A stretch of DNA of 64,000 nt from Antedon mediterranea (lineage: Eukaryota > Echinodermata > Crinoidea > Comatulida > Antedonidae). How positions within the stretch are numbered: position 1 is the stretch's first letter; every line of letters begins with the position of its first letter. The stretch spans positions 17,520,922 through 17,584,921 of the forward strand of contig NC_092678.1 of assembly GCF_964355755.1 (NCBI RefSeq), in the 5' to 3' direction. The notes beneath the pieces were generated by a model. The model saw only the letters and a list, made by a program, of their open reading frames with translations, searched no databases and was not told where the DNA came from. Positions 3,546 to 62,661 of this stretch are shown here, one piece after another. The position numbers were made by a program, and so were the translations under genes.

Positions 3546-3675
3546 AATATCATCACAAAAGTAATTTAACTGGTACTACTACACTATATGAGAACAGATC
3601 ATGAACAGTTGATGTTCTTGAGATCTGCAATCACTATTAAAGACTGTTAGGCCTAATGTTTGCGTAAAATTTCTC

Positions 3676-15195: not shown

Positions 15196-15906
15196 AGGCC
15201 AACAGCCATTAAGTCGCGTGCTACAATGCATGGTGATACCGGACCGACAGACAAACAGACCGACATACAGACAGACCGACAGACAGACGGACCGACCGAC
15301 ATAGTGAACTATACTGACCGAAATTACTGAACATGTTTAAAAATGTTGAAATGTTTAAAAACATTTATATTTTTTTTAATTTACACGTGCGTAGCCTGTC
15401 ACTTTTGACGTGCTCGTATAACGTAATTTCGAGTTGAAAAGTAAGTCAAGAAAACAGAAATCGGGCAAAAAAAGTGCGCAATAACATTTAACTTATTTCA
15501 TCGAAAATAAATTTTGAAAATTTTAAGCGCGCGTACGCATGCGTTACATGCGCTACGCACGTTATTGTATTGCCATATGATGATTTATGCCCTGAAATTT
15601 ATGAGTACCAAATTTTATTTAATTGTGATTCATGGTTGTTAAGATATGATTACAAACGTGATTTCGTTAAATCGTGCGTAGACCGCGTAATTTTTTATTG
15701 CGCACCGTGAAAACATAACCACATCGATTCCTGGCCATAAGGAATATTCTGTGAAAAATTGACTTAGCTAGATTAAACTGATATCAAGATAAGGTCATAA
15801 AGCGATAAAACGCATAGTGATACCGGACCGACAGACAGACAGACAGACCGACAGACAGACCGACCGACCAACATAGTGAACTATAGAGTCGCTTCCACGC
15901 GACTAA
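15196..15906. mobile_element. Interspersed repeat with GACA/GACC microsatellites
   Basis: Two microsatellite runs (about 15240-15300 and 15820-15870), each framed by gataccggacc and catagtgaacta, flank about 500 bp that also occurs at 44670-45200. GTCGCGTG at 15213 and CACGCGAC ending at 15903 form short inverted termini flanked by TAA on both sides. The related sequence at about 38580 lacks this whole block. The exact ends are unsure, because the 44570 copy shares sequence outside the putative terminus. Confidence 0.5.
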
Positions 15907-16437: not shown

Positions 16438-16509
16438 AGTGTTGTCAATGATTTCAAACCATCAAAGACGTTTTCTGGTAATGTAGTTATTTGGTTATCG
16501 CCCAAATCC
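16438..16509 (-). CDS. LRR exon 9 (72 bp), last one found
   Basis: Encodes DLGDNQITTLPENVFDGLKS plus LTTL. The donor is GTTAGT. No further LRR, LRRCT or membrane exon was recognised downstream, although its donor is good, so the 3' end of the gene is either lost or unrecognised. Confidence 0.8.
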
Positions 16510-19500
16510 CTGAAAAACGTGAAAAAATTCTGTAATTAAGTATATATACAGTACCAAAGGATAGTTCGATAAAAACAAATTATTATTTAAATTTCGAAAT
16601 ACAAACAAAATATAAAAACACATCCCTATCTATATTGTGCCAACAGAGGCCATAAACAGCTTCTATATATAAATTTACGTAAGGGCAAAATTCGGTAAAT
16701 CGCGCCTTACTTCTAGAATTTTTACTCGATGGTATATAAAGTTGGTTCGTACTTTCGGTACTGATTTTAACCACCTGATGTAACCCTGTTTACTAATTAA
16801 ATTAAGTTAGATAATTAGTTATTGACGATTATTCGGTAAATCGCGCCTTACTTCTAGAATTTTTACTCGATGGTATATAAAGTTGGTTCGTACTTTCGGT
16901 ACTGATTTTAACCACCTGATGTAACCCTGTTTACTAATTAAATTAAGTTAGATAATTAGTTATTGACGATTAAAACGAATTTAGGTTCAACGATTTGCCC
17001 CAAATAGGGGTGTTTTCCGATCGTGGTATACACTGTCTAATGGATGTCCATCTTGAAAAATACCCGCCACAAAAATGCGAGGAGGCTTCGCATTTTCCTA
17101 TCTCCTCCTACGATAATTGTTTTTAATAGCTGAAAACCGGTTGAACAGTTCGAGTACAGCATCATAATGTTGAAGATTTTCTTTAAAAAATACTATTTTG
17201 ATACATTTAATATACGTTTTTACAAATGTATTGATTTGTGATGAATGGAACATTCCAAATTATTTGGTTTAACAATACAGGTATATATTTAGATTTATGG
17301 GCCCCCTTGGAGAATAAACATAAATAGTATTGCAATGCTGTACAATACTGTGTTAAGGTATTAACCACTTTTGATCGCAATTTGAATGGCAAATTTCTTA
17401 CTGTGAGGGTTGGTACTGTTAGATGTAATATAAAAATATATACAAATAAACTTTATTACTGTGAATGTGGGTAGGCCCTACTGTTAGATTATAAACATAT
17501 AATATACAAATAAACATTCCAAATTATTTGGTTTAACCATAGAGGTATAGATTTAGATTTATGGGCCCCCTTGGAGAATAAACATAAATAGTATTGCAAT
17601 GCTGTACAATACTGTTAAGGTATTAACCACTTTTGATCCCAATTTGAATCGCAAATTTCTTACTGTGAGTGTTGGTACTGTTAGATGTAATATAAAAATA
17701 TATACAAATAAATTTTATTACTGTGAGTGTGGGTAGGCCCTACTGTTAGATTATAAACATATAATATACAAATAAATAAACGTTATTACTGACAGTTGCT
17801 TCTCAACGTTTGTATTAATTAATAATTTAAAATTATATAAACGTCGTAGTGGTGTATCGTTACATGTACTTTACTATTTCAATCGACTATGACAGTGAGA
17901 GTTTTAACAAAGTACCGTATTAAATCGTAAATGTTTTACTGTATTTAGTGGTATATTATTTATAGGCCTATAAAACATTAAAAACAATATTTCGTTACTG
18001 AGTGGATAAGAATATATTTTAAAATGTTTCCTCTTTGTACCTATCTTCTTCCCCCATCCCTCAACCCTTAATGTTACATACAAAACACAAATTGGGTTTG
18101 TTTAAATGAGTCCAAATAAAAAAATTTGACTCATTTTGTTTCTCTCTCGGAAGTAATTCCCAGGGTGCTAATTTTGGTTGACTACATAAATCATTGTGTA
18201 TATTTATTCGTTTCTGTAAACGACAATGTATTATAGTCCTGCGGTACGTACATTTGAAATCTCCATTTTTTTATCGCTGGAAATACTGTGTATTCGAGAA
18301 CCATCTGTGGGCACGACCTAGATGGTACGCGAGCGAAGCGAGCGTGCCATCTAGTATATCTAATTAGGCGTGTCACTCCAGCAGTGAAGCCAGTACAGGG
18401 TATATACAAGGACATAATAATATTTGTTTAATGTTACTTTTGCTCGTATTATCATTAGTTGAATGTTTTAGCTGTTTTTCTTTAACTGCTTTTACATGAT
18501 ATAACTATGTTTTATCTGGATTTACTGTAATCATGTTGTAATTTCTTTAATATCTACGATACAATACAACAGTTAAAAGTATTATAAACAAGTGAAACAT
18601 TCGAACACATTTGCTGGTAATGTTGTTATTTGGTTATTGGCCAACCACCTGAAAATTGTGAAAAATGTAATAAATAATAAACAGTACCAAGGGATATGAT
18701 GATAAAACATTATCTATTTTATATATAATTTAGAAAAACAAACAAAACATAACAATAAATATCTTATTGTGCCAGCAGAGGTCAAGTCCAATTAGGCGTG
18801 TCACTCCAGAAGTGAAACCATTACAAGGTATATACAAGGACATACTAATACTTGTTTAATGTTACTTTAGCTCGTATTATCATTATTTGCATGTTTTAGC
18901 TGTTTTTCATTAACTTCTTCTACATGATATAATTATGTTTTATCTATATTTTACTGTAATCATGTTGTACTTTCCATATCATATGATGACATAGATCAAT
19001 ATCTACGATACAATACAACCGTTAAATGACGATGATCTATGTGTTCTGCTATATTTTTACGTTTTGTTATGGCCGCCTATGGTGATACAGTAACTGAATT
19101 AAATAGTCTTGAGTTCGCATAAACAATGCCAAAATAGAAAAACTCAAAAAGAGCAAAAAGAAAGATATTAAATTTGAACGTATTACGCATGAAACAGACA
19201 TATTTCATTGAAGTATTAATTCCTAAAATAAAATAATTGTTTTTATGAGGAAAAGAGTTAAACTGACGTTTTCATGAGAGGAAGATATATAATATTTGTT
19301 CCTCATGCAAAATAAGCTTATTACAACACTATTACACTAAAGCATAAAGTTACACTTAACTGTGCTTTAAAATAAATATAATTTAAAGCATTACACAGTA
19401 TAGGCCAATAGTTCACCCGATAACAATTTCTGATTTGTCCAAATTTTTTTTTTTTAAATCTGACAAATATAAACATGAAGAAATAAAAAACAATGTCGTT

Positions 19501-22500
19501 AATATACATCAGACTTAAGAATAATGACATCAATTTTCGATAATCATAAGGACGAGTTCTCTCATTTGTGCCCATGGAATTGATATTTCCTAAGTTCACC
19601 TAACTACGGAGGAATAACGCATTTATATTTATATAATGACTACATTAATCATAATATTTAATGATGCTGTGTTATCGAATTTTCTATGTTACTGGAGAAA
19701 TCGGGATACAGTACCGATAATCAGGTGTGTTAGACCAGAATACGTTACTCCGGCTTAAAATGGAGGTATTTGCTTTAACCACGTTCTGAAATGTGTCTGT
19801 AAGATTATGTTAGGCAAAAACAACACCTTGTATGCCTGAGCAGCCTGGTCTAGAGACCTATGTATTGCCTTCGCTAAATCCTTTCTTAAACTTGTTCCCA
19901 CTTATACCTTCTGGAGGAATGTTATCCATAGTAACCCTAATATACTGCTGATTGGATTCGTCATTTTATAATTGTAACACAATGTGTCATAAGAACTGTT
20001 CGTTATACCTTGGTAGTATGTGGTGCAATTAATTAAAGAATTGTAAATATTTTAAACAAAGTGCAACACAGTGTGACGTATTGTCTGCTACAATATCTAA
20101 TGATTACACATTTTTAATAATTACGTAATTTCTCATTTAATAAAACACTTATAATAACAAATTACCGTATTAAACGTACAAATCAAAGTATAAAAACAAT
20201 AAGTATATACAGTACCAACGGAAATTACGATAAAAAAAATATATATTTTATTAATTTCGAAATACAAAGAAAAAATAACAAAATGTCTATATTGTGCCAA
20301 CATAGGCCAAAAAGACTTATGTCCAATTAGGCGTGTCACTCTGACAGTGAAACAATTACAAGGTATAATTGATATAATACTAATTTAATGTTACTTTATC
20401 TCGTATTATCATTTCATGTTTTAGCTGTTTTTCACCTGTCCTTGCATGATTATAACAATGTTTTATCTAGATTGACTGTAATCATGTTGTACTTTCCATA
20501 TCATATGATTTCTCGTATTATCATTATTTGCATGTTTTAGCTGTTTTTCATATGATTTCTAGATGTATTTCAATATCTACGATACAATACAACCGTTAAA
20601 TGACGATGATCCATGTATTCTGTTATATTTTTATTTTTCATTATGGCCGCCGATGGTGCTACAGTAACTGAATTAAAGAGACAAAACAATGCCAAAATAG
20701 AAAAACTCAAAAAGAGCAAAAAGAAAGATATTACATTTGAACGTATTACACATGAAACAGACATATTTCATAGAAGTATTAATTCCTAAAACAAAATAAT
20801 TGTTTTTATGTTTAACTCTATGCCTCATAGAGTTAAACTGACGTTTTCATGAGAGGAAGATAATTATATACTATTTGTTCCACGTGCACAATAAGCTTAT
20901 AAAACTATTGCAGATTATACGTGAATCGGACCGGTGACGAGTCGGTGACAAACCGAACGGATCATCCAGGAGTTCTGAAACGTCTGGCCAAGTGCGCTCT
21001 CTTTGCGCAGTATTATACGGAGGCGTGTCTATTTTTGTTTTCGTATCTAATTTTGGCTTTAAAAACATGTCAGCCCAAAACATTCGCTACCCCTGGATCC
21101 GCCCCGTCGGAATATTGTCGATATAAAATGATGGAGGTTCAGACGTTCTGTGGTACATTTAAATTGTATTATTTGTATTCCCTCTTTAAACTTCATCTTA
21201 ATTTCAATATAATAATATCAATTAAGTAATATTGTTTACTTAGAAGTGTGCCAGTTATTCAGCACTGAAGAAAACAAAATCAGAAAAATGTAAACACATG
21301 TTACCAGGTTTTTTAAAACATTAATAAAGCTAAGTGTGTTAATTAATGACATGTAAAGCACATTTTAGCATGAGGAAGTGAAAATATGGAGGGAAAGAAA
21401 ACATAAAGTGTAGACACAGATATCACCTCACAAGCAATCTATTGCTGACCCAGTGTGAAGCCAGAAATCAAGAGTTGTTCCTGCTCCCCAATTATTGTGG
21501 TCCCTTTATTTATAAAACTTGAAAAGCAGAAAAAAGAGGAGGAGGTGTATGTTTGTTTGTTGGCAGATGCCTATAACGCTGGTTCAGATTTTAAGTTAAG
21601 TTTATCTTACTGACGGATAACGCAAATAATGTACGTACCACAACATTAGGTAACCGATACGTCACCATTATGACACGTTTGAATAAAGAACAAGTGTATT
21701 CCACTGTACGGAAGGATAGCTACCCGATGCCTCTCATAATAATATTATTTTTCATTCAATAACATATACTAATAATGATAATAATAATTTACTTTAAAAC
21801 AAACGAAAGGTTGTAGTCAAGAGGCAGGAAACTGCAGGTGTTGTTTATTGCCTTTAGACATAAACAGGTACCACCGTACGAGAATCGGGTGTCCAACGGA
21901 CGAGTACCATGTGTGTATATCGGGAACAAAGCTATTATAAAGTGTACCGATTTTACAGACTATGTCTACGACACATAATCTGTTGTATGACAAGAATTAA
22001 TGAATGAGTCCGATAATTGTACAGAGCATCAAACAACTACATGTGGATTTTTAAACATTTTGACAAACATGGCGTTTCATACGTATGGTACGTGTACACA
22101 CTGTATAGAAAACATCGAAACGCGACAACAGAAAAAAGACAATAACAGAGACTTGGGACAAGTCTATACAGTATTAACATACAGTATTGAAAGTGATGAA
22201 GCAAAAGCAGAAAATGCACCTTGATCTATGGTAGTTATAGCGTTATGATATAAATACCTGCAAATATTGAAAAAAAAGACACACATTTCAAATTATTAAT
22301 AATAATACTGTATAACAATACAATAAATAGATAACCACTACATTTGTTTGCTATATTTCACAGTACAGTTATTTGTATTCAGCATTTCAGTGGGCGATTT
22401 AGACTTCGTTTGACACTCGAAACAATGTCAAATGAAAGGCAAGCTAATATTGCCATGAGGAGGTGCAAATCTGAGGGAGAGGGGAAAATGTAATGTGTAC

Positions 22501-25500
22501 AAACAGATATCACCTCACCTTTATTTATAAAAGTTGAAAATTAGAAAAAAGGGGAGAATGTAGTGTATTATTTTTTGTTGTTGCCAGATGCCTAAACTCT
22601 AGAAAATGATAAATTAAGTTTATCTTACGGACGGATAACGTTAATAATAACAATTATTAATTCATAATTATGCTTTATAGCTTTTTGAGGTTTTTTTTCG
22701 TGCACTTAGAAGAACTTATTTAAAGTGCATTTTAAGTATTGTTTTTCTTCTAGATTATTTCAGTCATCACAATAGTTAATGTTTGTTTTATGTGGAGGTT
22801 CAGACTTAAACACAAAGTACAAATGTATAAAGTGCACTAGCAGTGAAAACATTACAGGGTAGGCCTATATACAAGGACATAAAAATATTTGTTTAATGTT
22901 ACTTTAGCTCGTATTATCATTAGTTGCATGTTTTAGCTGTTTTTCTTTAACTGCTTTTACATGATATAAAGATATTACATTTGATCGTATTACACATGAA
23001 ACAGACATATTCCGTAGAAGTATTAATTCCTAAAATAAAATAATTGTTTTTATGAGGCATAGCGTTAAACTGACGTTTTCATGAGAGGAAGATATATAAT
23101 ATTTGTTCCTCGTGCACAATAAGCTTATTACAACACTATTACACTAAAGCATAAAGTTACACTTAACTGTGCCTTAACACCGTTTAATAGTTCACCCGAT
23201 ACAAAATTCTGATTTGTCCAAATTTCTTTAAAAAAAAATCTGACAAATATAAACATGAAGAAATAAAAAGCAATGTCATAAGGACGAGTTCTCGAACGAT
23301 TCTCTCATGCTCATTGCTATTAAACCGGACGGAGGGATAGGTAACCGATGCCTCTCTTAATGACATTATTTTTTATTTAATAACATTTACTAGTTTAGTT
23401 GGTTTAGTGATCAATAAAAATCAAACAAAAACAGGCATATTATACTATTTTAGTTTTGGATGAATATTCTGTCTTTGCAAAGAGTAAAAATGAAATGATG
23501 TGACAAAATGTGTGGTTACATTACAAAGAAAATATACTATTTTCAAAAGTATGATAAACAATAGAAAGCACTCACAGCCCTGTCAATGATGTCAAACCAT
23601 CAAACACGTTTTCTGATATTGTAGTTATTTTGTTACTGCCCAACCCTCTGAAAATTGTGAAAAAATGCATTAAATAAGTATATATACAGTACCAAAGGAT
23701 AATACGATAAAAAAAAATTATTTTTTAATTTGTAAATACAAAAAAAATATAACAACAAATATCTTATTGTGCAAACAGAGGCCAAAAAAAGCTTATGTCT
23801 ATTAGGCGTGTCACTCCAGCAGTGAAAACATTACAGGGTAGGCCTATATACAAGGACATAAAAATATTTGTTTAATGTTACTTTAGCTCGTATTATCATT
23901 AGTTGCATGTTTTAGCTGTTTTTCTTTAACTGCTTTTACATGATATAACTATGTTTTATCTAGATTTACTGTAAATATGTTGTAATTTCTTTAATATCTA
24001 CGATACAATACAACCGTTAAATGACGATGATCCATGTATTCTGCTATATTTTTATTTTTCATTATGGCCGCCGATATTGCTACAGTAACTGAATTAAATA
24101 GTCTTGAGTTCGCATAAACAATATCAAAATAGAAAAAATCAAAAAGAGCAAAACGAAAGATATTACATTTGATCGTATTACACATGAAACAGACATATTC
24201 CGTAGAAATATTAATTCCTAAAATAAAATAATTGTTTTTATGAGGCATAGCGTTAAACTGACGTTTTCATGAGAGGAAGATATATAATATTTGTTCCTCG
24301 TGCACAATAAGCTTATTACAACACTATTACACTAAAGCATAAAGTTACACTTAACTGTGCCTTAACACCGTTTAATAGTTCACCCGATACAAAATTCCGA
24401 TTTGTCCAAATTTCTTTTAAAAAAAATCTGACAAATATAAACATGAAGAAATAAAAAGCAATGTCATTAATATACATCATGAGACTTATGAATAATGACA
24501 TCAATTTTCGATAATCATAAGGACGAGTTCTCGAATGATTCTCTCATTTGTGCCCATGGAATTGATATTTCCTAAGTTCACCTATCTACGGAGGAATAGA
24601 TGCCTCAAATAATAACGTTTTCATGAGAGGATGATATATAAAATTTGTTCCCCGTCAACACTATTTCAAATCACATGAATCAAAACAATATGTCGAGTGT
24701 GCCTATTCCTTCTTGTTCTTATTCCTCTTGAGAGGAAGATATATAATATTTGTTCCGCGTGGAAAATAAGCTTATAACACTATTGTAGATTATACGTGAA
24801 TCGAAACAATTATGTCGAGTGTGCCTATTCCTTCTTGTTTTACTGTGGACAACCGCATAGAGAAACTTTAACATTTAACGCCATGCGTCTGGATTGTCTG
24901 TGATTTTAAACGATTGTCAATGCTATCTCGACATATGACAATTATTTAAATTTGGTAATACAGAATCTCAAATGTATCACATGTGGTTCTTGTATCATTA
25001 GGTTAGGAATAAACATTTATAATAATTATATAATTTCTCATTTAATAAAACATACCAGTTATACAACAAACTACGTACAGGAGCTCGAGCTTGTGTTAAA
25101 TTAGTACATATTTTTTATCATTTATATTAAGAATACATTAATCATAATGTTTAATGATGCTGTATTATCGAATTTTAATGTTACTTGAGAAATCGAGATA
25201 AAATACCGATAATCGGGTGTGTTAGACCAGAATACGTTACTCCTGCTTAAAATGGAGGTCTTTGCTTTAACCACGTTCTGAAATGTGCCTGTAAGATTAT
25301 GATAGGCAAAAAAAATACCTTGTATACCTTAGCAACCTGGTGTAGAGACATATGTATTGTCTTCGCTAAATCCTTTCTTAAACTTGTTCCCACTTATACC
25401 TTCTAGAGGAATGTTATCCATAGATATAACCCTAATATACTGCTGATTGGATTCGTCATTTTATAAGTGTAACACAATGTGTCATAAGAACTGTTCGTTA

Positions 25501-28500
25501 TACCATGGTAGTATTTGGTGCAATTAATTAAAGAATTATATGATATGTAAATATTTTACACAAAGTGCAACACAGTGTGACGTATTGTCTGCTACAATAT
25601 CTAATGATTACAGATTTTTAATAATTTTGTAATTTCTCATTTAATAAAACATACCCCTTATAATAAAAAATTACCGTATAAAACGTACAAATCAAAGTAT
25701 AAAAACAATAAGTATATACAGTACCAACGGAAATTACGATAAAAAAGTATCTATTTTATTAATTTCGAAATACAAAGAAAAAATAACAACAAAATACCTA
25801 TATTGTGCCAACAGAGGCCAAAAAGGCCAGTTAGTTACTTTATCTCGTATTATCATTATTTGCATGTTTTAGCTGTTTTTCATTAACTGTCTTTTCATGA
25901 TTATAACAATGTTTTATCTAGATTGACTGTAATCATGTTGTACTTTCCATATCATATGATTTCTAGATATAGATCAATATCTACGATACAATACAACCGT
26001 TAAATGACGATGATCCATGTATTCTGCTTTATTTTTATTTTTCATTATGGCCGCCGATGGTGCTACAGTAACTGAATTAAAGAGTCTTGTTCGCAAACAA
26101 AACCAAAATAGAAAAACTCAAAAAGAGTAAAAGAAAGATATTACGTTTGGACGTATCACACATGAAACAGACATATTCCGTAGAAGTATTAATTCCTAAA
26201 ATAAAATAATTGTTTTTATGAGGCATAGATTTAAACTGACGTTTTCATGAGAAGAAAATATATAATATTTGTTCTACGTGCACAAGAAGCTTATTACAAC
26301 ACTATTGCAGATTATACGTGAATCGGTGACGAGTCGGAGACGAACCGAACGGATCATCCAGAATTTCTGAAAAATCTGGCCAAGTGCGCACACTTTGCGC
26401 AGCATTGTACGGAGGCGTGTCTATATTTGTTTTCGTATCTAATTTTGGCTTTCAAAAATGGTAGCGCAAGGCAATCGCTACCCTTGGATCCGCTCCGTCG
26501 GAATATTTTGATATAAAATGATGGAGGTTCAGACGTTCTGTGGTACATTTAAATTGTATTATTTGTATGTTCCCTGTAAACTTCATCTTAATTTCAAATA
26601 TAATAATATCAATAAAGTAATATTGTTTACTTAGAAGTGTGCCAGTTATTCAGCATTGAAGAATGCAAACTTGGAAAAATGTGACACATGTGACCACGTT
26701 ATTTGAACATTATTAAAGCTAAATGTGTAAATTAATGAGATGTACAGCACATAGAAGGCCAGGAACGTGCGGTAACCAACCGGAGTCGCGAATAGTTACA
26801 CTGTAAATACATCTTTTCACGGTATAGAAGACATCTTCTTAGATAAATAACAAAATATGAGCAAAGCGTAGCCAAATGACGACCATATTATTTTCAGAGG
26901 CCAAGTTACTAAAACATTCATAACTCATTAACGGCGGACAGTCATATGGACATACTTTTTGTATTAAAATGTTCCAGATTAGTTTATCGTAAAGGTTGTG
27001 TTTGACTTGCATGTTTGTACTGTGAGCGAATATCGGTATAACAAACGTCGCTGCCCACACGTAAGTTTCCTCAGAAACTCATTAGGATTATCGGGAACCA
27101 GCAACAGAAATCGGTAAAGAAAATGATTCCTAATTCCTAACAAACAAGCTATTATTGACCCAATGTGAAGGTATAAATCGAGAGACTAGTTGTTTGACGG
27201 GATGTTCATGCTCCCCAAGGTCCATTTATTTATAAAACTTGAAAGCAGAAAAAAGAGGAGAAGGTGTATTTTGTTTGTTGTCAGATGCCTATAACGGTTC
27301 AAATTTTAACTTAAGTTTATCTTACGGACGGATAACGCTAATAATGTACGTACCACCACATTAGGTGACCGATGCGCCCATATTATGACACGTGCGAATA
27401 AAGAACAAGTGCTATTCCACCGTACGGAGGGATAGGTAACCGATGCCTCTCATAACAACATTATTTTTCATTCAATAACATTTAGGAATAATGATAATAA
27501 TAATTTACTGTAAAACAAACGAAAACAAGTAGGCCCATCATTACACACAATACAACTACATACAGGAGCTTGTGTTAAAAAAAAGGTTTATGGATCAGTC
27601 ATAATCAAACAAAATCGGGCATATTATAATATTTTAGTTTTAGATGAATATTCTGTATTTTCAAAGTGTAAAAAATAAAATGAAAAGAAAATGAAAATAT
27701 ATACTATTCAAAAGTATAGTAAACAAGAGAAAGCACTCACAGTAGTGTCAATGATGTCAAACCATCAAACACATTTGCTGGTATTGTAGTTATCTGGTTA
27801 TATGATAAATCCCTGAAAACCGTTAAAAATTCAATACAAAATGTTAGTTTTGGATGAATATTCTGTCTTTGCAAAGGGTAAACAATGACATTATGTGACA
27901 ATAAGTGTGGTTATATTACAACGAAAATATACTATTTTCAAAAGTATGATAAACAAGAGAAATATTTGCTGGTAATGTTGTTATTTGGTTATTGACCAAC
28001 CACCTGAAAATCGTGAAAAATGTAATAAATAATATACAGTACCAATGGATAGTATGATAAAACATTATCTATTTTATTAATTTCGAAAAACAAACAAAAC
28101 ATAATAACAAATATCTAATTGTGCCAGCAGAGGTCAAAACAAGCTTATGTCTAATTTGGCGTGTCACTCTATGAAACCATTACAAGGTATATAGCCTACA
28201 AGGACATAATAATATTTGTTTAATATTACTTTAGCTCGTATTTGTATTTGCATGTTTTAGCTGTTTTTCATTAACTGTTTTTGCATGATATAACTAGGTT
28301 TTATCTGGATTTACTGTAATAATGTCGTACTTTCGATATCATATGATTTCTGGATGTAGTTCAATATCTACGATATACAATACAACCGTTAAATGACGAT
28401 GATCCATGTGTTCTGCTATCTTTTTACTTTTCATTATGGCCACCGATGGTGCTACAGTAACTGAATTAAATAGTCTTGTTCGCCAACAATGCCAAAAACT

Positions 28501-37500: not shown

Positions 37501-40500
37501 TAACGCTAATAATAACAATTATTAATTCATAGTTATGCTTTATAGCTTTTTGAGGTTTTTTTTCGTGCACTTAGAAGAACTTATTTAAAGTGCATTTTAA
37601 GTATTGTTTTTCTTCTAGATTATTTCAGTCATCACAATAGTTAATGTTTGTTTTATTTGGAGGTTCAGACTTAAACACAAAATACAAAAATGTATAAAGT
37701 GCACTATGCTGTGTGAAATAAAACTGAAACTGAATGTACGTACCACCACATTAGCTAACCGATGCGCCCTCATTATGACGTTTTTTATAAGAGAAAGATA
37801 CAAACCATGTGTTGCGCGTGCGAATAAAGAACAAGTGCAGCTATTCCACCGTACGGAGGGAAAGATAACCAATGCCTCTCATAATAACATTATTTTTCAT
37901 TTAATAATATTTACTAATAATGATAATAACAACTAGATTTGAACTATGGACGAGTTAGGTTATCCGCAGCGCAAATGCCACGTGTACGTCAAACTTTAGA
38001 ATATTGCGCACATAAAAACGATTATGCCATTGAAAAAATGTTAGTGTGCTCTCTATTTTGTGTCACGTCTAAGTATATAGAGTATACACTATATATCTGT
38101 ATACGTACTACATACAGTGCAGAATAGGTGAAAATACCAGGACCCGGTTTTTTCAACCAATTTTTACCATGATGATGTCATCAAAATGAAACACGTAGAT
38201 AGCAATTTTGGAAGGAAATTATCTGAGCAACAACATGTCGTGTTGAATAAATTTGGAAACGTAGAATACGGAAGCGCGCTCTTTTAAATGTCATGAACTA
38301 TGACGCAAAATATGAAATTACAACTTTTATAATTGAACTGGCCATATGATGACGTCACAACATCCGATTCGCATAATTTGTACATGATTTCTAGCTTCCA
38401 GAAAACGTTTTAATCATGTGTATCACTTTTTATTCTGAGGAGTTATAATAAATTTAAATTTATTGGAAATGATGAAAACAAGTGATCAAATTTATTCACG
38501 CTTTTGAACATGATGAAGTCATCACAATTTTAAACATTTTAAATCATGCGAAAGATAATTGATTGACCTAGACAATATAAAAAAAATGGTGGGAAAAAAA
38601 ACGAGCGCAAATTGTCCAATTCGACGTGCTCGTATGACTTGATTTTAAGTCGAAATTGTTTGAAAGCTGGTAAAATTACTAGAAACGGCTGGAAAAACAT
38701 AAATCACGCGAAAAAAAATAACATTTACTAATAATGATAATAATAATTATACGAATAGGGCAAAGGGTAAAAAATAAAATAATATGACAATAAGTGTGGT
38801 TATATTACAACGAAAATATACTATTTTCAAAAGTATGATAAACAAGAGAAAGCACTCACAGTGTTGTCAATGATTTCAAACCATCAAAGACGTTTTCTGG
38901 TAATGTAGTTATTTGGTTAAAGGCCACAATCCTGAAAAACGTGAAAAAATTATATAATTAAGTATATATACAGTACCAAAGGATAGTACGATAAAAACAA
39001 ATTATTATTTAAATTTCGAAATACAAACAAAATATAACAACAAATATCTTATTGTGGCAACAGAGGCCATAAACGGCTTATATCTAATAAGGCGTGGCAC
39101 TCCAGCAGTGAAATAATTACAAGGTATATACAAGGACATAATAATACTTGTTTAGTGTTACTTTAGCTCGTATTATCATTATTTGCATGTTTTAGCTGTT
39201 TTTCATTAACTTCTTCTACATGATATATAAATATGTTTTATCTATATTTTACTGTAATCATGTTGTACTATGCATATGATGACATAGATCAATATCTACG
39301 ATACAATACAACCGTTAAATGACGATGATCCATGTGTTCTGCTATATTTTTCGTTATGGCCGCCGATGGTGCTACAGTAACTGAATTAAATAGTCTTGAG
39401 TTCGCATAAACAATGCCAAAATAGAAAAACTCAAAAAGAGCAAAAAGAAAGATATTACATTTGAACGTATTACGCATGAAACAGACATATTTCATTGAAG
39501 TATTAATTCCTAAAATAAAATAATTGTTTTTATGAGGAAAAGAGTTAAACTGACGTTTTCATGAGAGGAAGATAATTATAATATTTGTTCCTCATGCAAA
39601 ATAAGCTTATTACAACACTATTACACTAAAGCACAAAGTTACACTTAACTGTGCTTTAAAATAAACATAATTAAAAGCATTACACAGTATAGGCCTAATA
39701 GTTCACCGAATAAAAATTTCTGATTTGTCCAAATATCTTTAAAAAAAATCTGACAAATATAAACATGAAGAAATAAAAAACAATGTCGTTAATATACATC
39801 AGACTTAAGAATAATGACATCAATTTTCGATAATCATAAGGACGAGTTCTCGAATGATTCTCTCATTTGTGCCGATGGAATTGATATTTCCTAAGTTTAC
39901 CTAACTACGGAGGAATAGATGCCTCAAATAATAACGTTTTCATGAGAGGAAGATATATAGCATTTGTTCCCCGTCAACACTATTTCAAATCCCATGAATC
40001 GAAACAATATGTCGAGTGTGCCTATTCCTTCTTGTTCTTATTCCTCTTGAGAGGAAGATATATAACATTTGTTCCGCGTGCAAAATAAGCTTATAACACT
40101 ATTGTAGATTATACGTGAATCGAAACAATTATGTCGAGTGTGCCGATTCCTTCTTGTTTTACTGTGGACAACCGCATAGAGAAACTTTAACATTAACGCC
40201 ATGCGTCTGGATTGTCTGTGATTTTAAACGATTGTCAATGCTATCTCGACATATGACAATTATTTCAATTTGGTAATACAGAATCTCAAATGTATCACAT
40301 GTGGTTCTTGTATCATTAGGTTAAGAATAAACATTTATAATAATTATATAATTTATCATTTAATAAAACATACCAGTTATACAACAAACTACGTACATGA
40401 GCTCGAGCTTGTGTTAAATTAGTACATATTTTTTATCATTTATATTAAGAATACATTAATCATAATGTTTAATGATGCTGTATTATCGAATTTTAATGTT

Positions 40501-43500
40501 ACTGGAGAAATCGAGATAGAATACCGATAATCAGGTGTGTTAGACCAGAATACGTTACTCCTGCTTAAAATGGAGGTCTTTGCTTTCACCACGTTCTGAA
40601 ATGTGCCTGTAAGATTATGTTAGGCAAAAACAATACCGTGTATACCTAATAGCGGCCTGGTGAGACCTATGTATTGCCTTCGCTAAATCCTTTCTTAAAC
40701 TTGTTCCCACTTATACCTTTTAGAGGAATGTTATCCATAGATATAACCCTAATATACTGCTGATTGGATTCCTCATTTCATAATTGTAACACAATGTGTC
40801 ATAAGAACTGTTCGTTATACCTTGGTAGTATGTGGTGAAATTAATTAAAGAATTATATGATTTGTAAATATTTTAAACAAAGTGCAGCACAGTGTGACGT
40901 ATTGTCTGCTACAATATCTAATGATTACACATTTTTAATAATTGTGTAATTTCTCATTTAATAAAACATACCAGGTTTAATAACAAATTACCGTATTAAA
41001 CGTACAAATCAAAGTATAAAAACAATAAGTATATACAGAACCAACGGAAATTACGATACAAACGTATCTATTTTATTAATTTCGAAATACAAAGAAAAAA
41101 TAACAACAAAATATCTATATTGTGCCGGCCAACAGAGGCCAAAAAAGGCTTATGTCCAATTAGGCGTGTCACTCTGACAGTGAAACAATTACAAGGTATA
41201 ATTGATATAATACTAATTTAATGTTACTTTATCTCGTAGTATCATTATTTGCATGTTTTAGCTGTTTTTCATTAACTGTCTTTGCATGATTATAACAATG
41301 TTTTATCTAGATTGACTGTAATCATGTTGTACTTTCCATATCATGATTTCTAGATGTAGATCAATATCTACGATACAATACAACCGTTAAATGACGATGA
41401 TCCATGTATTCTGCTATATTTTTATTTTTCATTATGGCCGCCGATGGTGCTACAGTAACTGAATTAAAGAGTCTTGTTCGCAAACAATACCAAAATAGAA
41501 AAAATTAAAAAGAGTAAAAGAAAGATATTACGTTTGGACGTATCACACATGAAACAGACATATTCCGTAGAAGTAGTAATTCCTAAAATAAAATAATTGT
41601 TTTTATGAGGCATAGAGTTAAACTGACGTTTTCATGAGAAGAAAATATATAATATTTGTTCTACGTGCACAATAAGCTTATTACAACAATATTGCAGATT
41701 ATACGTACGGTGAATCGGTGACGAGTCGGAGACGAACCGAACGGATCATCCAGGATTTCTGAAAAATCTGGCCTAGTGCGCACACTTTGCGCAGCATTGT
41801 ACGAAGGCGTGTCTATATTTGTTTTCGTATCTAATTTTGGCTTTCAAAAATGGTAGCGCAAAGCAATCGCTAATCCCGGATCCACCCGCCGGAATATTTT
41901 GACATAAAATGATGGAGGTTCAGACGTTCTGTGGTACATTTAATTTGTATTATTTGTATGTTCCTTCTTTAAACTTCATCGTAATTTCAAATATAATAAT
42001 ATCAATAAAGTAGTATTGTTTACTTAGAAGTGTGTAAGTTATCCAGCACTGAAGAAAACAAACTCAATTCAAACTTAATTATTAAAGCTAAGTGTGTTAA
42101 TTAATGAGATGTAAAGCTGATGAGCTGATTTTAGCATGAGGAAGTGAAAATATGGAGGGAGGGGAAAATATAAAATGTAGAGACACAGACATCATCTAAC
42201 AAGCAAGCTATTACTGACCCAATGTGAAGGCAGATATCAAGAATTGTTTGACGGGATGTTCCTGCTCCCAAATTATTGTGGTCCCTTTATTTATAAATTT
42301 GAAAAGCAGAACAAAGAGGAGAAGGTGTATTTTTGTTTGTTGCCAGATGCCTATAACTCTAGTTCAAATTTTAAGTTAAGTTTATCTTACGGACGGATAA
42401 CGCTAATAATGTACGTACCACCATATTAGGTAACCGATACGCCTCAATTATGACGTTAGTAGAGGAAGATACAAACCATTTGTTGGGCGTGCGAATAAAG
42501 AACAAGTGATATTCCACCGTACTGAAGGAAAGATGACCAATGCCTCTCATAATAACATTATTTTTCTTTTAATAGCATTTACTATTAATGATAATAATAA
42601 TTTACTTTAAAACAAACGAATAACAAGTAGGCCTATAATTACACACAATACAACTACATACAGGAGCTTTGCGTTAAAATAAAGGTTTAGGGATCAATCA
42701 TAATCAAACAAAAACCGGCATGTTATATTATTTTATTTTTAGATAAATATTCTATCTTTTCAAAGAGTAAAACATGATGTGACAATAAGTGTGGTTATAT
42801 TACAACGAAAATATACTATTTTCAAAAGTATGATAAACAAGAGAAAGCACTCACAGTTCTGCCAATGATGTCAAGCCATGAAACACATTTGCTGGTAATG
42901 TTGTTATTTGGTTACTGTACAAATACCTGAAAACCGTGAAAAAATGGAATCAATAATTATATATACAGTACCAAAGGATAGTACGATAACAAAATATCTA
43001 TTGTATTAATTTTTAAATACAAACAAAAAATAACAACATATATCAGCTATATTGTGCCAACTGAGGCCAAATAGGTTTCTGTCCGGTGAGGCGTGTCTAT
43101 TTTTGTTTTCGTATCTAATTTTGGCTTTAAAAACATGTCAGCCCAAAACAATCGCTACCCCTGGATCCGCTTCCGTCGGAATATTTTTGATATACAATGA
43201 TAGAGGTTCAGACGTTCTGTGGTACATTTAAATTGTATTATTTGTATGTTCCCTTTAAATGTCATCTTAATTTCAAATATAACAAATCAATAAAGTATTA
43301 TTGTTTACTTAGAAGTGTGCCATTAAATGACGTTGATCCATCATGTAATATCCTATATTTTTATTATTTTTCATTATGGCCGCCGGTGGTGCTACATTAA
43401 CTGAATTAAAGAGTCTTGTTCGCAAACATTACCAAAATAGAGAAACTCAAAAAGAGCAAAGAGAAAGATATTACATTTGAACGTATACACATGAAATATT

Positions 43501-46500: not shown

Positions 46501-49500
46501 GCCAACAGAGGCCAAAAAGGCTTATGTCCAGTTAGGCGTGTCACTCTGACAGTGAAACAATTACAAGGTATAATTGATATAATACTAATTTAATGTTACT
46601 TTATCTCGTATTATCATTATTTGCATGTTTTAGCTGTTTTTCATTAACTGTCTTTGCATGATTATAACAATGTTTTATCTAGATTGACTGTAATACGGTT
46701 GTACTTTCCATATCATATGATTTCTAGATGTAGATCAATATCTACGATACAATACAACCGTTAAATGACGATGATCCATGTATTCTGCTATATTTTTATA
46801 TTTCCCTATGGCCGCCGATGGTGCTACAGTAACTGAATTAAAGAGTCTTGTTCGCAAACAATACCAAAATAGAAAACTCAAAAAGAGTAAAAGAAAGATA
46901 TTACGTTTGGACGTATCACACATGAAACAGACATATTCCGTAGAAGTATTAATTCCTAAAATAAAATAATTGTTTTTATGAGGCATAGAGTTAAACTGAC
47001 GTTTTCATGAGAAGAAAATATATAAGATTTGTTCTACGTGCACAAGAAGCTTATTACAACACTATTGCAGATTATACGTGAAACGGTGACGAGTCGGAGA
47101 CGAACCGAACGGATCATCCAGAATTTCTAAAAAATCTGGCTAAGTGCGCACACTTTGCGCAGCATTGTACAGAGGCGTGTCTATTTTTGTTTTCGTATCT
47201 AATTTTGGCTTTCAAAAATGGTAGCGCAAAGCAATCGCTACCCCTGGATCCGCTCCGTCGGAATATTGTTGATATAAAATGATGGAGGTTAAGACGTTCT
47301 GTGGTACATGTAAATTGTATTATTTGTATGTTCCCTGTAAACTTCATCTTAATTTCAAATATAATAATATCAATAAAGTAATATTGTTTACTTAGAAGTG
47401 TGCCAGTTATCCAGCATTGAAGAAAACAAAATCGGACAAAATTTAACGCATGTGACCACTTTTTTTTAAACATTATTAAAGCTAATTGTGGTAATTATTG
47501 AGATGTAAAGCACATTGGCTGATTTTAGCATGAGGAAGTATTATGGAGGGAGGGGAAACATAAAGTGTAGACACAGATATCACCTCACACGCAAGCTATT
47601 ACTGAACCAGTGTGAAGGCAGAAATCAAGAGACTAGTTGTTTGACGGGATGTTCCTGCTCCCCAATTATTGTGATCCCTTTATTTATAGAACTTGAAAAG
47701 CAGAAAAAAGAGGAGAAGGTGTATGTTTGTTTATTGCCAGATGCCTATAACGCTGGTTCAAATTTTAACTTAAGTTTATCTTATGGACGGATAACGCTAA
47801 TATTGTACGTACCACCACATTAGGTAACCGATGCGCCCCCATTAACACATGCGAATAAAGAACAAGTGCTATTCCACTGTACGGAGGGATAGCTACCCGG
47901 TGCCTCTCATAATAATATTATTTTACATTCAATAACATATACTAATAATGATAATAATAATTTACTCTAAAAACAAACGAATACCAGTATGCCTATCACT
48001 ACACACAATACAACTACATACAGGAGCTTGTGTTAAAATAAAGGTTTAGTGATCAATCATAATCAAACAAAAAGAGGAAAATTATATTATTTGAGTTTTG
48101 GATGAATATTTTGTCTTTGGAAAGGATAAAAAATGATGTGACAATAAGTGTGGTTATACAACGAAAATACTATTTTCAAAAGTATGATAAACAAGAGAAA
48201 GCACTCACAGGTTTGTCAATGATGTCAAACCATCAAACACGTTTGCTGGTATTGTAGTCATTTGATTACTGGACAAGTACCTGAAAGTAGTGAAAAAAAA
48301 GCAACACATAATTAAATGTATAGTATGCATACCAAGGGATGGTACGATCAAGAATTATTGTATTAATTAACTAGCAGTGTTAGAAAATTAATAATAATAC
48401 CAGTTGATGTTACTTTCGCCCTTATATCTTTACTTACATGTATATACATTATTACTGCTTTTGCTTTATTTATGTTTTACCGAAAAATACTGTAATCGTG
48501 TTGTAATTACCGTATTAATATGATTCGTGGATTGGATCAATAGTTTTATTACAAACACCCATATTATTAAATGATGACGATCCATGTATTGAATACATGG
48601 ATCGTCATCATTTAATAATATGGGTGTTTGTAACAATTCTGCTATTTTATATTTCATTATGGCATAATTAACGTATTATATACATGGAACAGACAGATAC
48701 CGTACACGTGTTAATTTCTAAAGTGTTAAACTGTGCCTGGAAATAAACATAATTACTGAACCCTGGTTGAATGACATAATTTTCACCTGATACAATTTTC
48801 TGCGGAACAAACGAATTTGACAAAACAAATCTGACGAATATAACCACTAACTAACGGGTACTCCGAGAGTACAAACCTCTGACTACTGTAAAATTCCCCT
48901 ACATAAAATGTCCCTGGAAAAATAAATTAAATTAGTTTTTATTAGTTCTAAGTGTAAATAGGTTAAATGCACACTACAAAGTTGTGGATGAGAGTTTGGT
49001 GTAATGGATATGTATCCAGCCTCTCACAGTTGAGATCGCACATTCAATTCCCGCATTGGATCTTACTTTTTTCATCATCCTTATTATTATTTTTTTTAAT
49101 ATTTTACTATTATTATTCATTATTATAATTAATAATATTTTATTTTAAATTTTACTTTTTTACTACGAAGCTAACATTACGTTAAGTCTGCTCAGTACCA
49201 GATCGCCGGCGTTTGAAAATTGTCTCCTTTCTTTTAAGCCAGTATAATTCTTCTACATAATTTTCTATGATTTATTTGTGTGTGTTAGTGCTGTATTGAT
49301 TTGGCTAATTGCACTACAACTTTGTGAATGTGAGTATTATTTTACCCTGACCATTCAAAATGTAAACACAATTATATGATGAGTCATTGATTTTGGTTAG
49401 AATATGATAAAAACTGTGAGCTCTAGGCAGTAAAATAGTTTTTTGTTAGATGTGACCTTGACCTACGACCTTTCCCCCTCAAAATCGAACTCGTCCGAGC

Positions 49501-52500
49501 TTTTGGAAAATAGGTCATTGTGTCCAAATTTGGCCATATACGGATGAAAAATGTGGCCTCCAGGCTGTTCACATGATTCTCTCATTCAAGCCGATGAAAT
49601 AGATACATCATAAGTTCACCTTACTACGGAAAGATACGTACCACACTACATTAGATAACAGGTTCCTCTCATAATAAGGTGTTCATAAGAGGAAGATATG
49701 AACAAAATATTTAATAATATTGTTCCGCGTGCGTACAATAAACTTTTTACAACATTATTGCAGATTATACGTGAATGTCGAGCATTTCTTTCCGCGTAGA
49801 CAAGTATGTAGAGAAACTTGAACATTCTTGAACAATCTTGAAGTTGACATCGGATTGGATAATTGTAAGGATGAGTTTCCAGAATCTGGTTAAAATCGCA
49901 TTTTACAAAATGCAACGTTAGGCAAACGTTTTTACCTTCGGATTGAGGAAAGAAAGCGAAATCAGTGTCTACAAGAAATATCAGGGTCCAAAACAATATC
50001 AACACGGAAGCGACAGCAGTATTCATCGTATTCAAGCTAAGTACAGTACAACAAATAATCACTATAGGTCAGCAGTCACATTTGACAATTGCGGAAAACC
50101 TGACCACAAACAACATTGCAGAACAATATCGAGTACGAGTACCCGACCCAGTAGATATTCTATATATAATATATTGTTAATTTCCGGGTGAAATTGTTTC
50201 TTTTTTTGTGTTTTTGCATGATTTGTATATGGATGTACTAACCGAAATAAAGAAAATGAATGGGTGAATAGTGTACCGTCATTTTACAAGTTATATTATT
50301 GGCCTAATACAACATCATGGTATTTAGAAACAGTTAAACAATTAACAATGATTTACTTACAATTGTAAAGCTTTTACATTTTTACCAGTAAGGACAAAAA
50401 TGAGAATAAACACTTACAGTGTAACCAATGATGTCAAACCAACAAATGTATTTTCATACAATGTAGTAATGTTGTTACTTTTTAAATTCCTTAAAAATAA
50501 AAACGTGAATACTTGGTAAAATAACAGTTCACGAGTTGAGGTTTTCTTCGTTCGGGAAAACAGTTACAGTTTGGTGTGTATGTTAGCGGAAAAAATAGTG
50601 ACCGTAAAATAATGTATCTGTATTGTACATGTACTGTTAGTGTGTATTACATATCAGTGAAAAATAAAGAGGGTCGATAACGGTACAAACGTTAATATGG
50701 TATTACAATTAAAATACAAAGTTTATCGATAGAGTACGTAGAACTAAAGATCTGAAGCCTAGTTGGTCGGAACTTGTTCCGGCAGAAATGGTTCCTGATC
50801 AACTTAAAACTAATAAACACGTCACAGGAGGAAGCGTTGAAAAATGTGAAAGACGCGTCAAACTTCGAAGGAAAATATTCAACTCGCCAATGCCATCTGT
50901 TATTTTTGGTAATGCTCACTCACTTAAAAACAAGTTTAGTGAATTGACTGCAAATGGCAGTATTCGAATACAGGGACAGTTGCCTTATGGCGCTCACTGA
51001 AACTTGGCTAAAAGAATCTGTGTCGGATCTTGGATCAACAAATTTTTCTTGTAATCTGGAATTATTAACAGTTGCTCTTCGTTCCTTTTACTCGCCAAGG
51101 GAATTCTAGCAGGTTCTATAGTAATCTTTATCTATAGGCCTATACACCCGAAAGAATATTTCAAAGTAACTTGTGCTAAAGTCGCTGAGATAGACACATA
51201 AGCTACAAATCTCCAGATTCAATAAAGCTAGGTGATTTCCACAAAGGATCCCATAAAGAGCTTACAAAGGTAATTCCACACCTTTATCAATATGTAAACG
51301 TTGCTTGATAATTATGTGCTATGGATATGTTAAAAATGCTTATACAGCTAAAAGATGTCCAAACATTGAGCGGTCAGATCACAAAATGATACAACATGAT
51401 CCCAAGCTATAGTTTACGAACGAAGGAAGCCTCAAAATGAATTATGATACGCACATATCTTAGTGCCTTTAATTATGATATTCATTAGGCCTACATTGGC
51501 CTGGGTTTACTCACTGTGAACTGTAGTGCTGTTTTTTTTTTATTCTTCAGTTCGATTCTTCCTGTATAGTATTGTTTTATTTATTTAATCTATAGAAGGT
51601 TTATAACCATACGAACGTTAGACTATTGTAAAAAAAAAAATGTTCGATAAACTAAATCATTGGATTTTTGTCTAGATTTGGTAGTTTTTTTAGGTTTACG
51701 AATTAATTTTTCCTTTTGTTAAGGGGGATTGATCGGCTGAATGGGTAATAATTTGTATGATTTAGCTTTGTAATTTATTTGTTATAGGTATAGTCTCTGG
51801 TCTATGTAGCAAGGGCAATATTCTACAATTCAGACTCCACTCAATGAAATTAAGCAAATCTTGTATAGGAATTAATGTTAGATGGTGTGAGATAAAACGA
51901 GAAAATAGACTATGTCAAGTTTGTAACAGGAATGAAATTGAAGATGAGTACCACTTTCTGTTAATGTGTTAATACAACTTAAATTTATCGTTTGATTTCT
52001 TTTGCAAAATACACTAAATTAGGAAAAACATATTTTATATTGTATCCGCTTAAATAATAAAGAATAAATCAAAATTGTTCACGGTCATACCACCATTATA
52101 ACGCTTTACAAACAAACACTTAATCCTTTCCACGTATTAATACTATAGTTTACTAATATTACAATAATTATATTGTAAGACATCAGCAAGTTACCCTGAA
52201 CGTCATGGTATTTAGAAACAGTTAAACCTGCCCTAATTGTATAATCACAATTAACATGATTTACTGACAATTGTAAAAAGCAACCTCAAATTAAATAAAA
52301 TCTTTATTCTTTCCATATATAGAAAATGTACATGGGAAAAATGTTTTCCTCGACAGAAAAATATGGTACGTACTGTAGTACGTCAAGAATAGGTTGTTCG
52401 TTTATATAATCACTAATCTAAGACGGAAAGATAACATTTTAATATATCTTAAAGGCAATTGATAAATAATCAATCCCTTACTATAAGAAGAAACGTAGCA

Positions 52501-55500
52501 AAAGTGTGTAATTTATTTGTTATAGAATAGAAAAAAATAGTACATTTTTAGACTCAAACCAGCACAGCTGATGTAATCTTAGGGTAGCCTACAATAATTA
52601 AAAGTACACGTATAACTAAACGATAAAGAAAGAAACCTTTCCACGTATTCATGATAATATAGTGTATTAATATTACAATAGGCCTATATTGTAAGATACA
52701 GTATAACCACGTAATACATTAGACGTCATGGTATTTAGACTAAACCTACACTTAAATGTATAATAATCACAATTAACATGATTATACTTACAATTGTAAA
52801 GCTTTTACATTTTTACCAGTAAGGAAAAAATGAGAATAAACACTTACAGTGTAATCAATGATGTCAACCCAACAAATGCATTTTCATGCAATGTATTAAT
52901 GTTGTTACTTCTTAAATCCCTTCAAAATAAAAACATGAATACTTGGTAAATAACAGATCACGAATTGAGGTTTTCTTCTTTGGGGAAAATATTTACAGTT
53001 TGGTGTGTATGTCAGCGGACAAAATAGTGACCGTAAAATAATGTATCTGTATTGTAACTGTTAGTGTGTATTACGTGTCAGTGAAAATTAAAGAGGGTCG
53101 ATAACGGTACAAACGTTAAAAATTAATATTATTAAAATTAATATACAAAGTTTATCGATCAAGTACGTATCAAGTTCAAACTATCAAACACGTCACAGGA
53201 AGCGTGGACAAATGTCGAAGACGTGTCAAACTTCGAAGGAAAAAAAATTAAACCTTCCTATGTCATCTGTTATTTTTGGTAATGCTCACTCACTCAAAAA
53301 TAAGTTTAGTGAATTGGCTGCAAATGCCAGTATTCGAATACAAAGACAGTTTCCTTATGGCGCTCACTGAAATTTGGCTAAATGAATCTGTTTCTTATCA
53401 TGGATCAACAAATTGTTCTTGTAATCTGGAATTATTATCAGTTGCTCGTCGTCCCTTTTACTTGAAAAGGGAATTCTAACAGGTTCTAGTCATCATTATC
53501 TATATACACCCGAAAGCAGACTTCAAAGTAGCTTGCGCTAAAGTCGTTGAGATAGATAGACAACTAAGCTGCAAATCACCAGATTCAATAAAGCTGTTAC
53601 TATGTGACTTTAACAAAGGATCCTATGAAGAGCTTGCAAACGTAATTCCAAACCTGTACCTTCATCATTATGTAAACGTCGCTACGAGAGAAGGCACTAT
53701 ACTTGATATGCGCTATGGATATGTTAAAAATGCTTATACAGCAAAGATATGTCTAAGCATTGGGCGGTCAGATCACGAAATGATACAACATGATCCCAAG
53801 CTATAATTTACGAACATAGGATCGGAAGCCTCAAAATTAATATGATACGCACATATCCTAGTGCCTTTAATTGTGATATTCATTAGGCCTACATAAGGCC
53901 AGGGTTAGCCCACTGTGCAACTGTAGTGCTGTTTTTTGTTTGTTTATTCTTTAGTTCGATTCTTCCAGCATAGTATTGTTTTATTTATTTAATCTATAGA
54001 AGGGGGGATTGGTCGGCTGAATGTTAATAATTTGTATTATTTAGCTTTGTAATTTATTTGTTATAGGTATAATCTCTGGTCTATGAGCAAGTGCAAATAT
54101 TCTACAATTCAGAATCGACTCAATGAAATTAAGCAAATTTTGTTTAGGAATTAATGTTAGATGGTGTGAGATAAAACGAGAAAATGTCAAGTTTATAACA
54201 TGAAATGAAATTGAAGATGAGTACCACTTTTTGTTAATAATTATGTTAATACAACTTAAATTTATCGTTTGATTTCTTTTGCAAAATACACTAAATAAGG
54301 AAAAACATATTTTATGTTGTATCCGCTTTAATAATAAAAAATAAATCAAAGAATTTGTTATTGTTCGCAGTCATACCACCATTATAACGCTTTAACAAAT
54401 ATTTTAACCTTTCCACGTATTAATGATTTAGTGTCTAATATTACAGTATATTGTAAGACATCAGCACGTTACCCTGAACGTCATGGTATTTGGAAACAGT
54501 TAAACCTACCCTAAATGTATAATCACAATTAACATGATTTACTGACAATTGTAAACAGCAACCTCAAATTAAATAAAATCTTTATTCGTTCCATATATAG
54601 AAAATGTACATGGAAAAAATGTTTTCCTCGACAGAAAAATATGGTACGTACTGCATGCAGTACGTCAAGAATAGGTTGTTCGTTTATATAATCACTAATC
54701 TAAGACGGAAAGATAATATTTTAATATATCTTAAAGGCAATTGATAAATAATCAATCCCTTACTATAAGCAGAAACGTAGCAAGAGTGTGTAACTTATTT
54801 GTTATAGAATAGAGAAAAATAGTACATTTTTAGACTTAAACCAGCACAGCTGATGTAATCTTAAGGTAGCCTACAATAATTAGGCTTTTACATTTTTACC
54901 AGTAAGGAAAAAATGAAAATAAACACTTACAGTGTAACCAATGACGTCAAACCGACAAATGCATTTTCATGCAATGTAGTAATGTCGTTACTGCTTAAAT
55001 CCCTTCAAAATAAAAACATGAATACTTGGTAAAAAAACAGTTCACGAGATGAGGTTTTCTTCTCTGTGGAAAATAGTTACAGTTTGGTATGTATGTCAGC
55101 GGACAAAATAGTGACCGTAAAATAATGTATCTGTATTGTACTGTTAGTGTGTATTACATGTCAGTGAAAATTAAAGAGGGTCAATAACAGTACAAACGTT
55201 ATAATATTATTCAATTTAAAATGCAAAGTGTTTTCGATTGAGTACGTTAGGAACAGCTCGTCAATTTATATGATCGCTAAACACTACAGGAAAAACGTTT
55301 CTTAAATGGAGAGATATATCAAACCTTTAATAAATCTTAAAGGCAATTGATCAATAATCAATTCCTATACCATAATCAGAAATTTTGCAGCAGCGTTAAT
55401 AAAAGATAAACGTTTTCTCCAACAATTTTCAAGGAGAGTCAGCTAAAGTTAAGAATACTTTGTATGGTTTAAGCTTTGTACAGTAAGTGATTTGTATAGG

Positions 55501-62575: not shown

Positions 62576-62661
62576 TATAAAGAACGCACAGGTGAATTCA
62601 TTAATTGTGATTTTCGGAAAACAACGGAAAAATATAGACTTATAATAATCTACAACGCAGG

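Follow-up and report, generated by a model that had tools for sequence, protein, structure and literature searches.

The window (the whole stretch of 64,000 nucleotides analyzed here, from the feather star Antedon mediterranea) carries on its minus strand an LRRNT exon, 13 LRR exons of two types (A1-A10 and B1-B3), and a hinge exon; a single LRRNT marks the 5′ end of the series, and a single A10 and a single hinge close it at the 3′ end. An earlier note had described the LRRNT exon and nine 72-bp exons; all ten lie at the place and on the strand claimed, with AG/GT borders and phase-2 junctions. Its inventory was incomplete, as B1-B3, A10, and the hinge exon had been overlooked, and the earlier observation is thus real and larger than stated. 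The features are listed below in the order in which the minus strand is read (P0246 being an annotated Antedon GPCR and P0121 another Antedon protein, both treated further on).

56833-56718 (-), LRRNT exon, CX3CXCX6C, 116 bp, only strong LRRNT match in the window
54931..55002 (-), LRR exon A1, 72 bp, phase 2
52848..52919 (-), LRR exon A2, 72 bp, phase 2
50418..50489 (-), LRR exon A3, 72 bp, phase 2
48209..48280 (-), LRR exon A4, 72 bp, phase 2
42855..42926 (-), LRR exon A5, 72 bp, phase 2
38860..38931 (-), LRR exon A6, 72 bp, phase 2
37115-37041 (-), LRR exon B1, 75 bp, phase 2, absent from the earlier note
27964..28003 (-), truncated A-type exon copy without donor
27741..27812 (-), LRR exon A7, 72 bp, phase 2
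27136-27031 (-), TM6-TM7 relic of a 7TM exon, frame-broken, 90% over 21 residues to P0246
23576..23647 (-), LRR exon A8, 72 bp, phase 2
22257-22183 (-), LRR exon B2, 75 bp, absent from the earlier note
18593..18648 (-), truncated A-type exon copy without donor
16438..16509 (-), LRR exon A9, 72 bp, donor GTTAGT
13712-13638 (-), LRR exon B3, 75 bp, 85% over 26 aa to P0246
7747-7676 (-), LRR exon A10, 72 bp, divergent, last LRR, 79% over 24 aa to P0246
6969-6795 (-), hinge exon, all four hinge cysteines present, degenerate TM1, stop at 6797-6795
2027-5389 (-), PC4 and ALKBH2-like gene, frame break near 5050

Exon array and its surroundings

Each A exon comprises 23 full codons, preceded by a single base of one split codon and followed by two bases of the next; phase 2 holds at every junction of the array, and AG/GT borders are found throughout. 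Joined together, the LRRNT and the 13 LRR exons give 353 amino acids without a stop, and this protein matches Pfam LRR_8 at E=1.5e-105. In the truncated A copies near 28003 and 18648, the 3′ half and the donor are gone. A six-frame HMM scan returned 15 matches at E<=3.7e-4, namely the 13 intact and two truncated exons. Every one of them is on the minus strand, and the next best match lay on the plus strand at E=0.8. The 13 intact exons sat in the training set of the HMM and their own scores are in-sample, so the scan demonstrates strand bias and completeness, not independent detection. The matches of B3 and A10 to an annotated Antedon GPCR (85% and 79%), on the other hand, support the exons independently.

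Splice sites were graded by a crude score built on the general splice consensus. By this score the acceptors of A4-A6, A8, A9, and B1-B3 are good and pyrimidine-rich, the AAG acceptors of A1-A3 are poor, and the A9 donor GTTAGT is weak. A stronger-looking acceptor lies about 20 nt upstream of that of the LRRNT exon, and its use could add KLFLTQ. A crude scan of the window secured no signal-peptide exon; the candidate at 61990-61951 is weak and was set aside, having a poor donor and an intron that would span 5 kb. An equally crude pattern scan of the window, in which the 5′ end of the gene was not located, gave no LDLa-like match. Nothing convincing emerged from the pattern scan for an LRRCT, in whose place the GPCR hinge stands.

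A gene with PC4 and ALKBH2-like (2OG-Fe(II) oxygenase) domains neighbors the array on its left, likewise on the minus strand. It is closest to Antedon mediterranea proteins, with P0121 at 96.8% over 189 residues (88%, 98%, and 76% in the other aligned pieces), a likeness that by itself points to Antedon or a near feather-star relative as the source of the window. It belongs to a multi-copy family, because related Antedon proteins sit on several contigs.

Several other elements were seen in the window. Minisatellites occupy 32020-33656, where an array of 15-64 bp units and its reverse complement flank an array of 22-bp units. Inverted repeat copies (8427-9306 and 12553-13125, up to 94% alike) lie within the B3-A10 intron, and a 158-bp tandem repeat is present in 4.1 copies at 10736-11387. 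A long plus-strand ORF at 62638-64000, open at the window end, has no Pfam match and is presumably a retroelement gag-protease, judging by its motifs. Related plus-strand fragments are repeated in the introns (45677-46179, 50578-51097, and 53163-53465); they resemble part of a LINE endonuclease, and no Pfam match was found for 45853-46221.

Family placement and the 3′ end

The family of the locus cannot be read from its LRRs. When the search of the joined protein proposed by the earlier note was run, it gave a strong LRR match, yet the LRR part scored as high or higher against non-LGR LRR proteins. The best 120 of 945 matches are of mixed identity, with unnamed LRR proteins (presumably bacterial) at the top, and LRRTM, the IGF acid-labile subunit, and LRRC15 outrank LGR4 for the LRR part. 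Because of this mixture and this ranking, a family assignment from LRR sequence alone was rejected.

A query limited to the B2-A9-B3-A10 stretch was more telling. It matched 11 proteins among 225 candidates, of which the top four are unnamed LRR proteins and only two are named, P0245 and P0246, both ‘GRL101-like’ GPCRs of Antedon mediterranea. Their domain order (B-LRR, A10-LRR, hinge, and 7TM) is that of B3, A10, and the hinge here, and identity to P0246 amounts to 85% for B3, 79% for A10, and 60% for the hinge. Pfam finds 7tm_1 in both. Solved structures were compared with P0246 alone of the two, and RXFP1 (165 bits) came out ahead of FSHR (97) and LGR4 (47), with a match over P0246 residues 22-392 that covers the LRR, hinge, and 7TM. 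Because its best solved relative is thus relaxin receptor 1, P0246 is placed with the type C LGRs. The P0246 model starts just ahead of its B exon, and LRR exons upstream of that point may have escaped an ORF-level view there too. The LGR link drawn by the earlier note therefore stands insofar as the Antedon relatives are LRR-GPCRs, whereas the exon layout on which it had relied does not by itself identify LGRs.

The locus shares with type C LGRs an LRRNT-capped array with one LRR per phase-2 exon and a cysteine hinge after the last LRR, whose four cysteines align with those of P0245 and P0246. Of a rhodopsin-type 7TM, the 64-kb window yielded only a frame-broken relic, and because an intact one was sought there and not found, the locus does not qualify as an intact LGR. 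It is best described as a putative type-C-LGR-derived ectodomain, enlarged by duplicated exon-plus-intron blocks.

The hinge exon joins A10 in phase 2 with a continuous frame, behind a weak acceptor with a poor pyrimidine tract. What follows the hinge is degenerate: the best 19-residue hydropathy of TM1 is 0.48, as against 2.6 in both relatives. With P0246 the locus shares 18/31 hinge residues but only 6/23 in TM1 (Fisher p=0.027), and with P0245 17/31 and 7/23 (p=0.10), whereas the two intact relatives share 24/31 and 17/23 with each other. No AATAAA or ATTAAA occurs within about 3 kb past the hinge stop.

The TM6-TM7 relic sits in the A7-A8 intron and begins at the edge of a duplicated block (a breakpoint). 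Because of this relic, at least one other 7TM end must once have been inside the array. The 7TM parts of P0245 and P0246, used as queries, recovered no 7TM exon from the window besides the relic, all other matches having E>=0.055, and minus-strand positions 1-6800 gave no match at E<=10. For background, the best E was 0.36-4.1 in ten shuffles of the window and 0.61 in the reversed window. Given the shuffles, the weak match at 60576-60403 (E=0.055) was not accepted as a relic. The match at 8080-8030 (-) to the second extracellular loop of P0245 (E=0.12) is near background and was not taken as one either, though it is possibly a second 7TM relic. That the product is one intact receptor is not supported by a window that yielded no 7TM exon and has a degenerate TM1 and a broken TM6-TM7 relic within the array.

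Duplication and variation among the repeats

Self-comparison of the window reveals same-orientation duplications at several scales. The largest pair 19622-22839 with 34464-37706 (96.6% over 3250), 23477-25824 with 38760-41145 (90.8% over 2406), and 13242-15196 with 36655-38585 (92.3% over 1972), and shorter duplicated units lie around A1-A3. These same-orientation blocks bear out the earlier proposal that the duplicated unit is exon plus intron, at times an A-B pair. The uniform phase 2 and the two truncated copies likewise agree with its idea that LRRs can be gained or lost in frame. Such units are consistent with unequal crossing-over. Some intron modules outnumber the exons; one 112-nt module has ten copies, of which, by their coordinates, three adjoin an intact A exon, two a truncated one, and five no A exon at all. 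Exonless cassette intron modules lie at about 20616, 26020, 35473, 41407, and 46781, and such modules suggest either exon loss or a second type of intron module.

Differences between the copies are piled onto few codons, in keeping with the diversified recognition face that the earlier note had envisaged. As concave we counted the x positions of xxLxLxx (codons 1, 3, 4, 22, and 23 of the exon), a choice made after the exon sequences had been seen and an assignment to the concave face that we take from known LRR structure. Amino-acid variability in A4-A9 is 0.76 at these codons and 0.19 elsewhere, and 14 of 33,649 codon permutations are as extreme; the count is the same for A1-A9 (14/33,649), whereas A1-A3 alone give 2,381/33,649 (p=0.07). 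The concentration of variation on the recognition face is firm.

Whether it exceeds neutrality depends on the measure. Pooled pairwise pN/pS is 2.03 for concave and 0.37 for other codons, the pairs being non-independent. Under conservative minimal-step counting, the concave codons have 18 nonsynonymous and 5 synonymous changes (rate ratio 1.31, p=0.81), so that concave dN/dS>1 is not significant by this method, and the other codons have 8 and 7 (ratio 0.34, a borderline p=0.057). When A1-A3 are added to the pool, the N/S contrast reaches p=0.063.

Near-intron sequence (about 57 nt per side) served as a second yardstick. Pairs with flanks less than 20% different were kept, that is, 9 of the 36 A1-A9 pairs, a filter that dropped the pairs with A4 or A7. 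All six pairs among A5, A6, A8, and A9 reach p<=0.0015, whereas the A1-A3 pairs (p=0.42, 0.15, and 0.035) have little or no excess. With 150-nt flanks and three disjoint pairs, concave and flank sites differ at 5/15 versus 15/295 in A6/A9 (p=0.0013), 8/15 versus 36/290 in A5/A8 (p=0.0003), and 3/15 versus 16/149 in A2/A3 (p=0.24; upstream flank, the downstream one, with 40/145 different, being omitted as poorly alignable); combined, p=1.4e-5. All six exon differences of A6/A9 fall within codons 1-4, and 0/402 flank windows are equally dense. Flank windows varying as much as codons 1-4 number 23/321 in A5/A8, 10/211 in A5/A9, and 82/309 in A2/A3. Overall, the variation exceeds the neutral level moderately, and in one pair strongly.

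Interpretation and comparison with known systems

With a probability of about 0.5, we read the locus as the descendant of a type-C LRR-GPCR with duplicated LRR exons and a diversifying face, which has lost its 7TM half and likely encodes a membrane-less LRR protein. Its starting point would have been a type-C (relaxin-receptor/GRL101-like) LRR-GPCR in the feather star lineage, whose one-LRR-per-exon, all-phase-2 layout would let segmental exon-plus-intron duplications lengthen the ectodomain with the frame unbroken. An LRRNT, at least 13 LRRs, and a hinge would be the outcome. While the copies would hold the LRR framework, their concave (xxLxLxx) codons would shift and the binding surface diversify. 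The 7TM half would have been lost, the hinge exon now reading into a stop. The present product would most likely be membrane-less and probably secreted, a form favored because TM1 is less well preserved than the LRR and hinge parts. The exons, their frame and splice borders, the homology, the duplication, and the concentration of variation are shown by the sequence, whereas it is presumed that the array is transcribed as a single unit and that its product is secreted and binds a ligand.

The main rival is a decaying relic, which we consider possible though not probable. Tandem LRR-GPCR genes, or a lengthened one, would have lost the 7TM part, the LRR exons would have stayed intact only through their shortness and recent duplication, and the differences at concave codons would be older selection frozen in dead copies. 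The degenerate TM1 with its stop, the frame-broken TM6-TM7 relic within the array, the two truncated copies, the weak A9 donor, and the weak hinge acceptor all agree with decay. Neutral simulation cuts both ways, as A1-A9 would all be intact with a probability of 0.17 at 3% divergence per lineage but of 0.0025 at 10%, both divergences being assumed values. Against decay speak the framework codons, which look constrained (pooled pN/pS 0.37, borderline by minimal-step counting), and the better preservation of the hinge relative to TM1.

Rather unlikely is a row of several tandem LRR-GPCR genes, with the B exons and the TM relic as former gene ends. B is the penultimate LRR in P0245 and P0246, whereas B1 and B2 are internal to the array here, and the relic sits between A7 and A8, in line with such a row; LRRNT, A10, and hinge are each left in a single copy, however, so that the internal copies no longer possess ends of their own. 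A functional LRR-GPCR with its 7TM exon beyond the left end of the window, reached by hinge-exon skipping or an alternative 3′ exon, seems improbable. The intact GRL101-like P0246 and P0121 are probably on one Antedon mediterranea contig, which would suit this arrangement, but hinge and 7TM are contiguous in the relatives’ proteins, the hinge exon here meets a stop, and positions 1-6800 lack a minus-strand 7TM match (E<=10). Equally doubtful is a VLR-like feather-star recognition system derived from a hormone-receptor gene, in which LRR ectodomains cut off from the 7TM would gain and lose single-LRR exon cassettes, perhaps combined by splicing, and diversify their concave faces, to give varied soluble binders in an animal that lacks antibodies. 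Although much of the region is repeated DNA, a chance or simple noncoding repeat can be dismissed in view of the LRR_8 match and the exon-by-exon match to annotated Antedon GPCRs.

The nearest relatives of our preferred reading, a truncated and diversified type-C receptor, are P0245 and P0246, which have the same order of B-LRR, A10-LRR, and hinge (CC..C..C), but an intact 7TM and about 2-4 LRRs per model, as against 13 LRR exons and no 7TM here. Type C LGRs (RXFP1/2 and GRL101) similarly combine an LRR ectodomain with a hinge, P0246 being closest to RXFP1 among the solved structures. GRL101 has several LDLa modules at its N terminus. According to the accessible part of PMC11863921, type C LGRs carry N-terminal LDLa modules; here the crude scan of the window found no LDLa, the 7TM is absent, and the LRR exons are tandemly multiplied and concave-variable.

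Judged by the accessible parts of the papers cited below, brown algal LRR-ROCO genes shuffle 72-bp phase-2 exons of a single LRR, and their concave sites are positively selected (PMC11378527). The likeness extends to one LRR per exon (though three exons are 75 bp here) and to variable concave sites, and as far as sequence can say, our locus would work like those shuffled exons. The algal proteins are ROC-COR GTPases, whereas ours is an animal ectodomain with an LRRNT and a GPCR hinge whose relatives carry a 7TM. Tetrahymena LRR genes follow the same array logic, with equal-length phase-2 exons and growth proposed to occur by unequal crossing-over (PMC6564038), but differ in their 90-bp exons and their number (thousands of genes in a ciliate). 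The agnathan VLRs and crab VLR2 (PMC10045472) would work alike in stacking LRRs onto an LRRNT with a variable recognition face, and differ in that our window pattern scan found no convincing LRRCT.

As for function, a recognition role may be proposed by analogy, with the nearest support coming from the snail Biomphalaria sudanica, where SudRes2, an expansion of GRL101-like LRR-GPCRs whose ectodomains are diverse, has been linked to schistosome resistance (PMC12297450). SudRes2 differs in that entire paralogous genes, equipped with LDL and C-type lectin domains, make up the cluster, and LRR exon arrays are not mentioned for it in the accessible part of that paper. Veenstra (2021) reported a single GRL101 gene for crinoids and, although the search was extensive, no further LGRs, using for Antedon mediterranea transcriptomes only (PMC8286064, accessible part). 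Judging by titles and abstract openings, we found no published account of a crinoid LRR-exon array.

The locus would represent a feather-star relative of the type-C LGRs whose ectodomain, multiplied and variable on its recognition face, goes unseen in ORF views. Were it expressed, it would give animals an example of the diversification by exon cassettes that brown algae show, and, as hinted by SudRes2 in the snail, it would tie diversified recognition to a family of hormone receptors.
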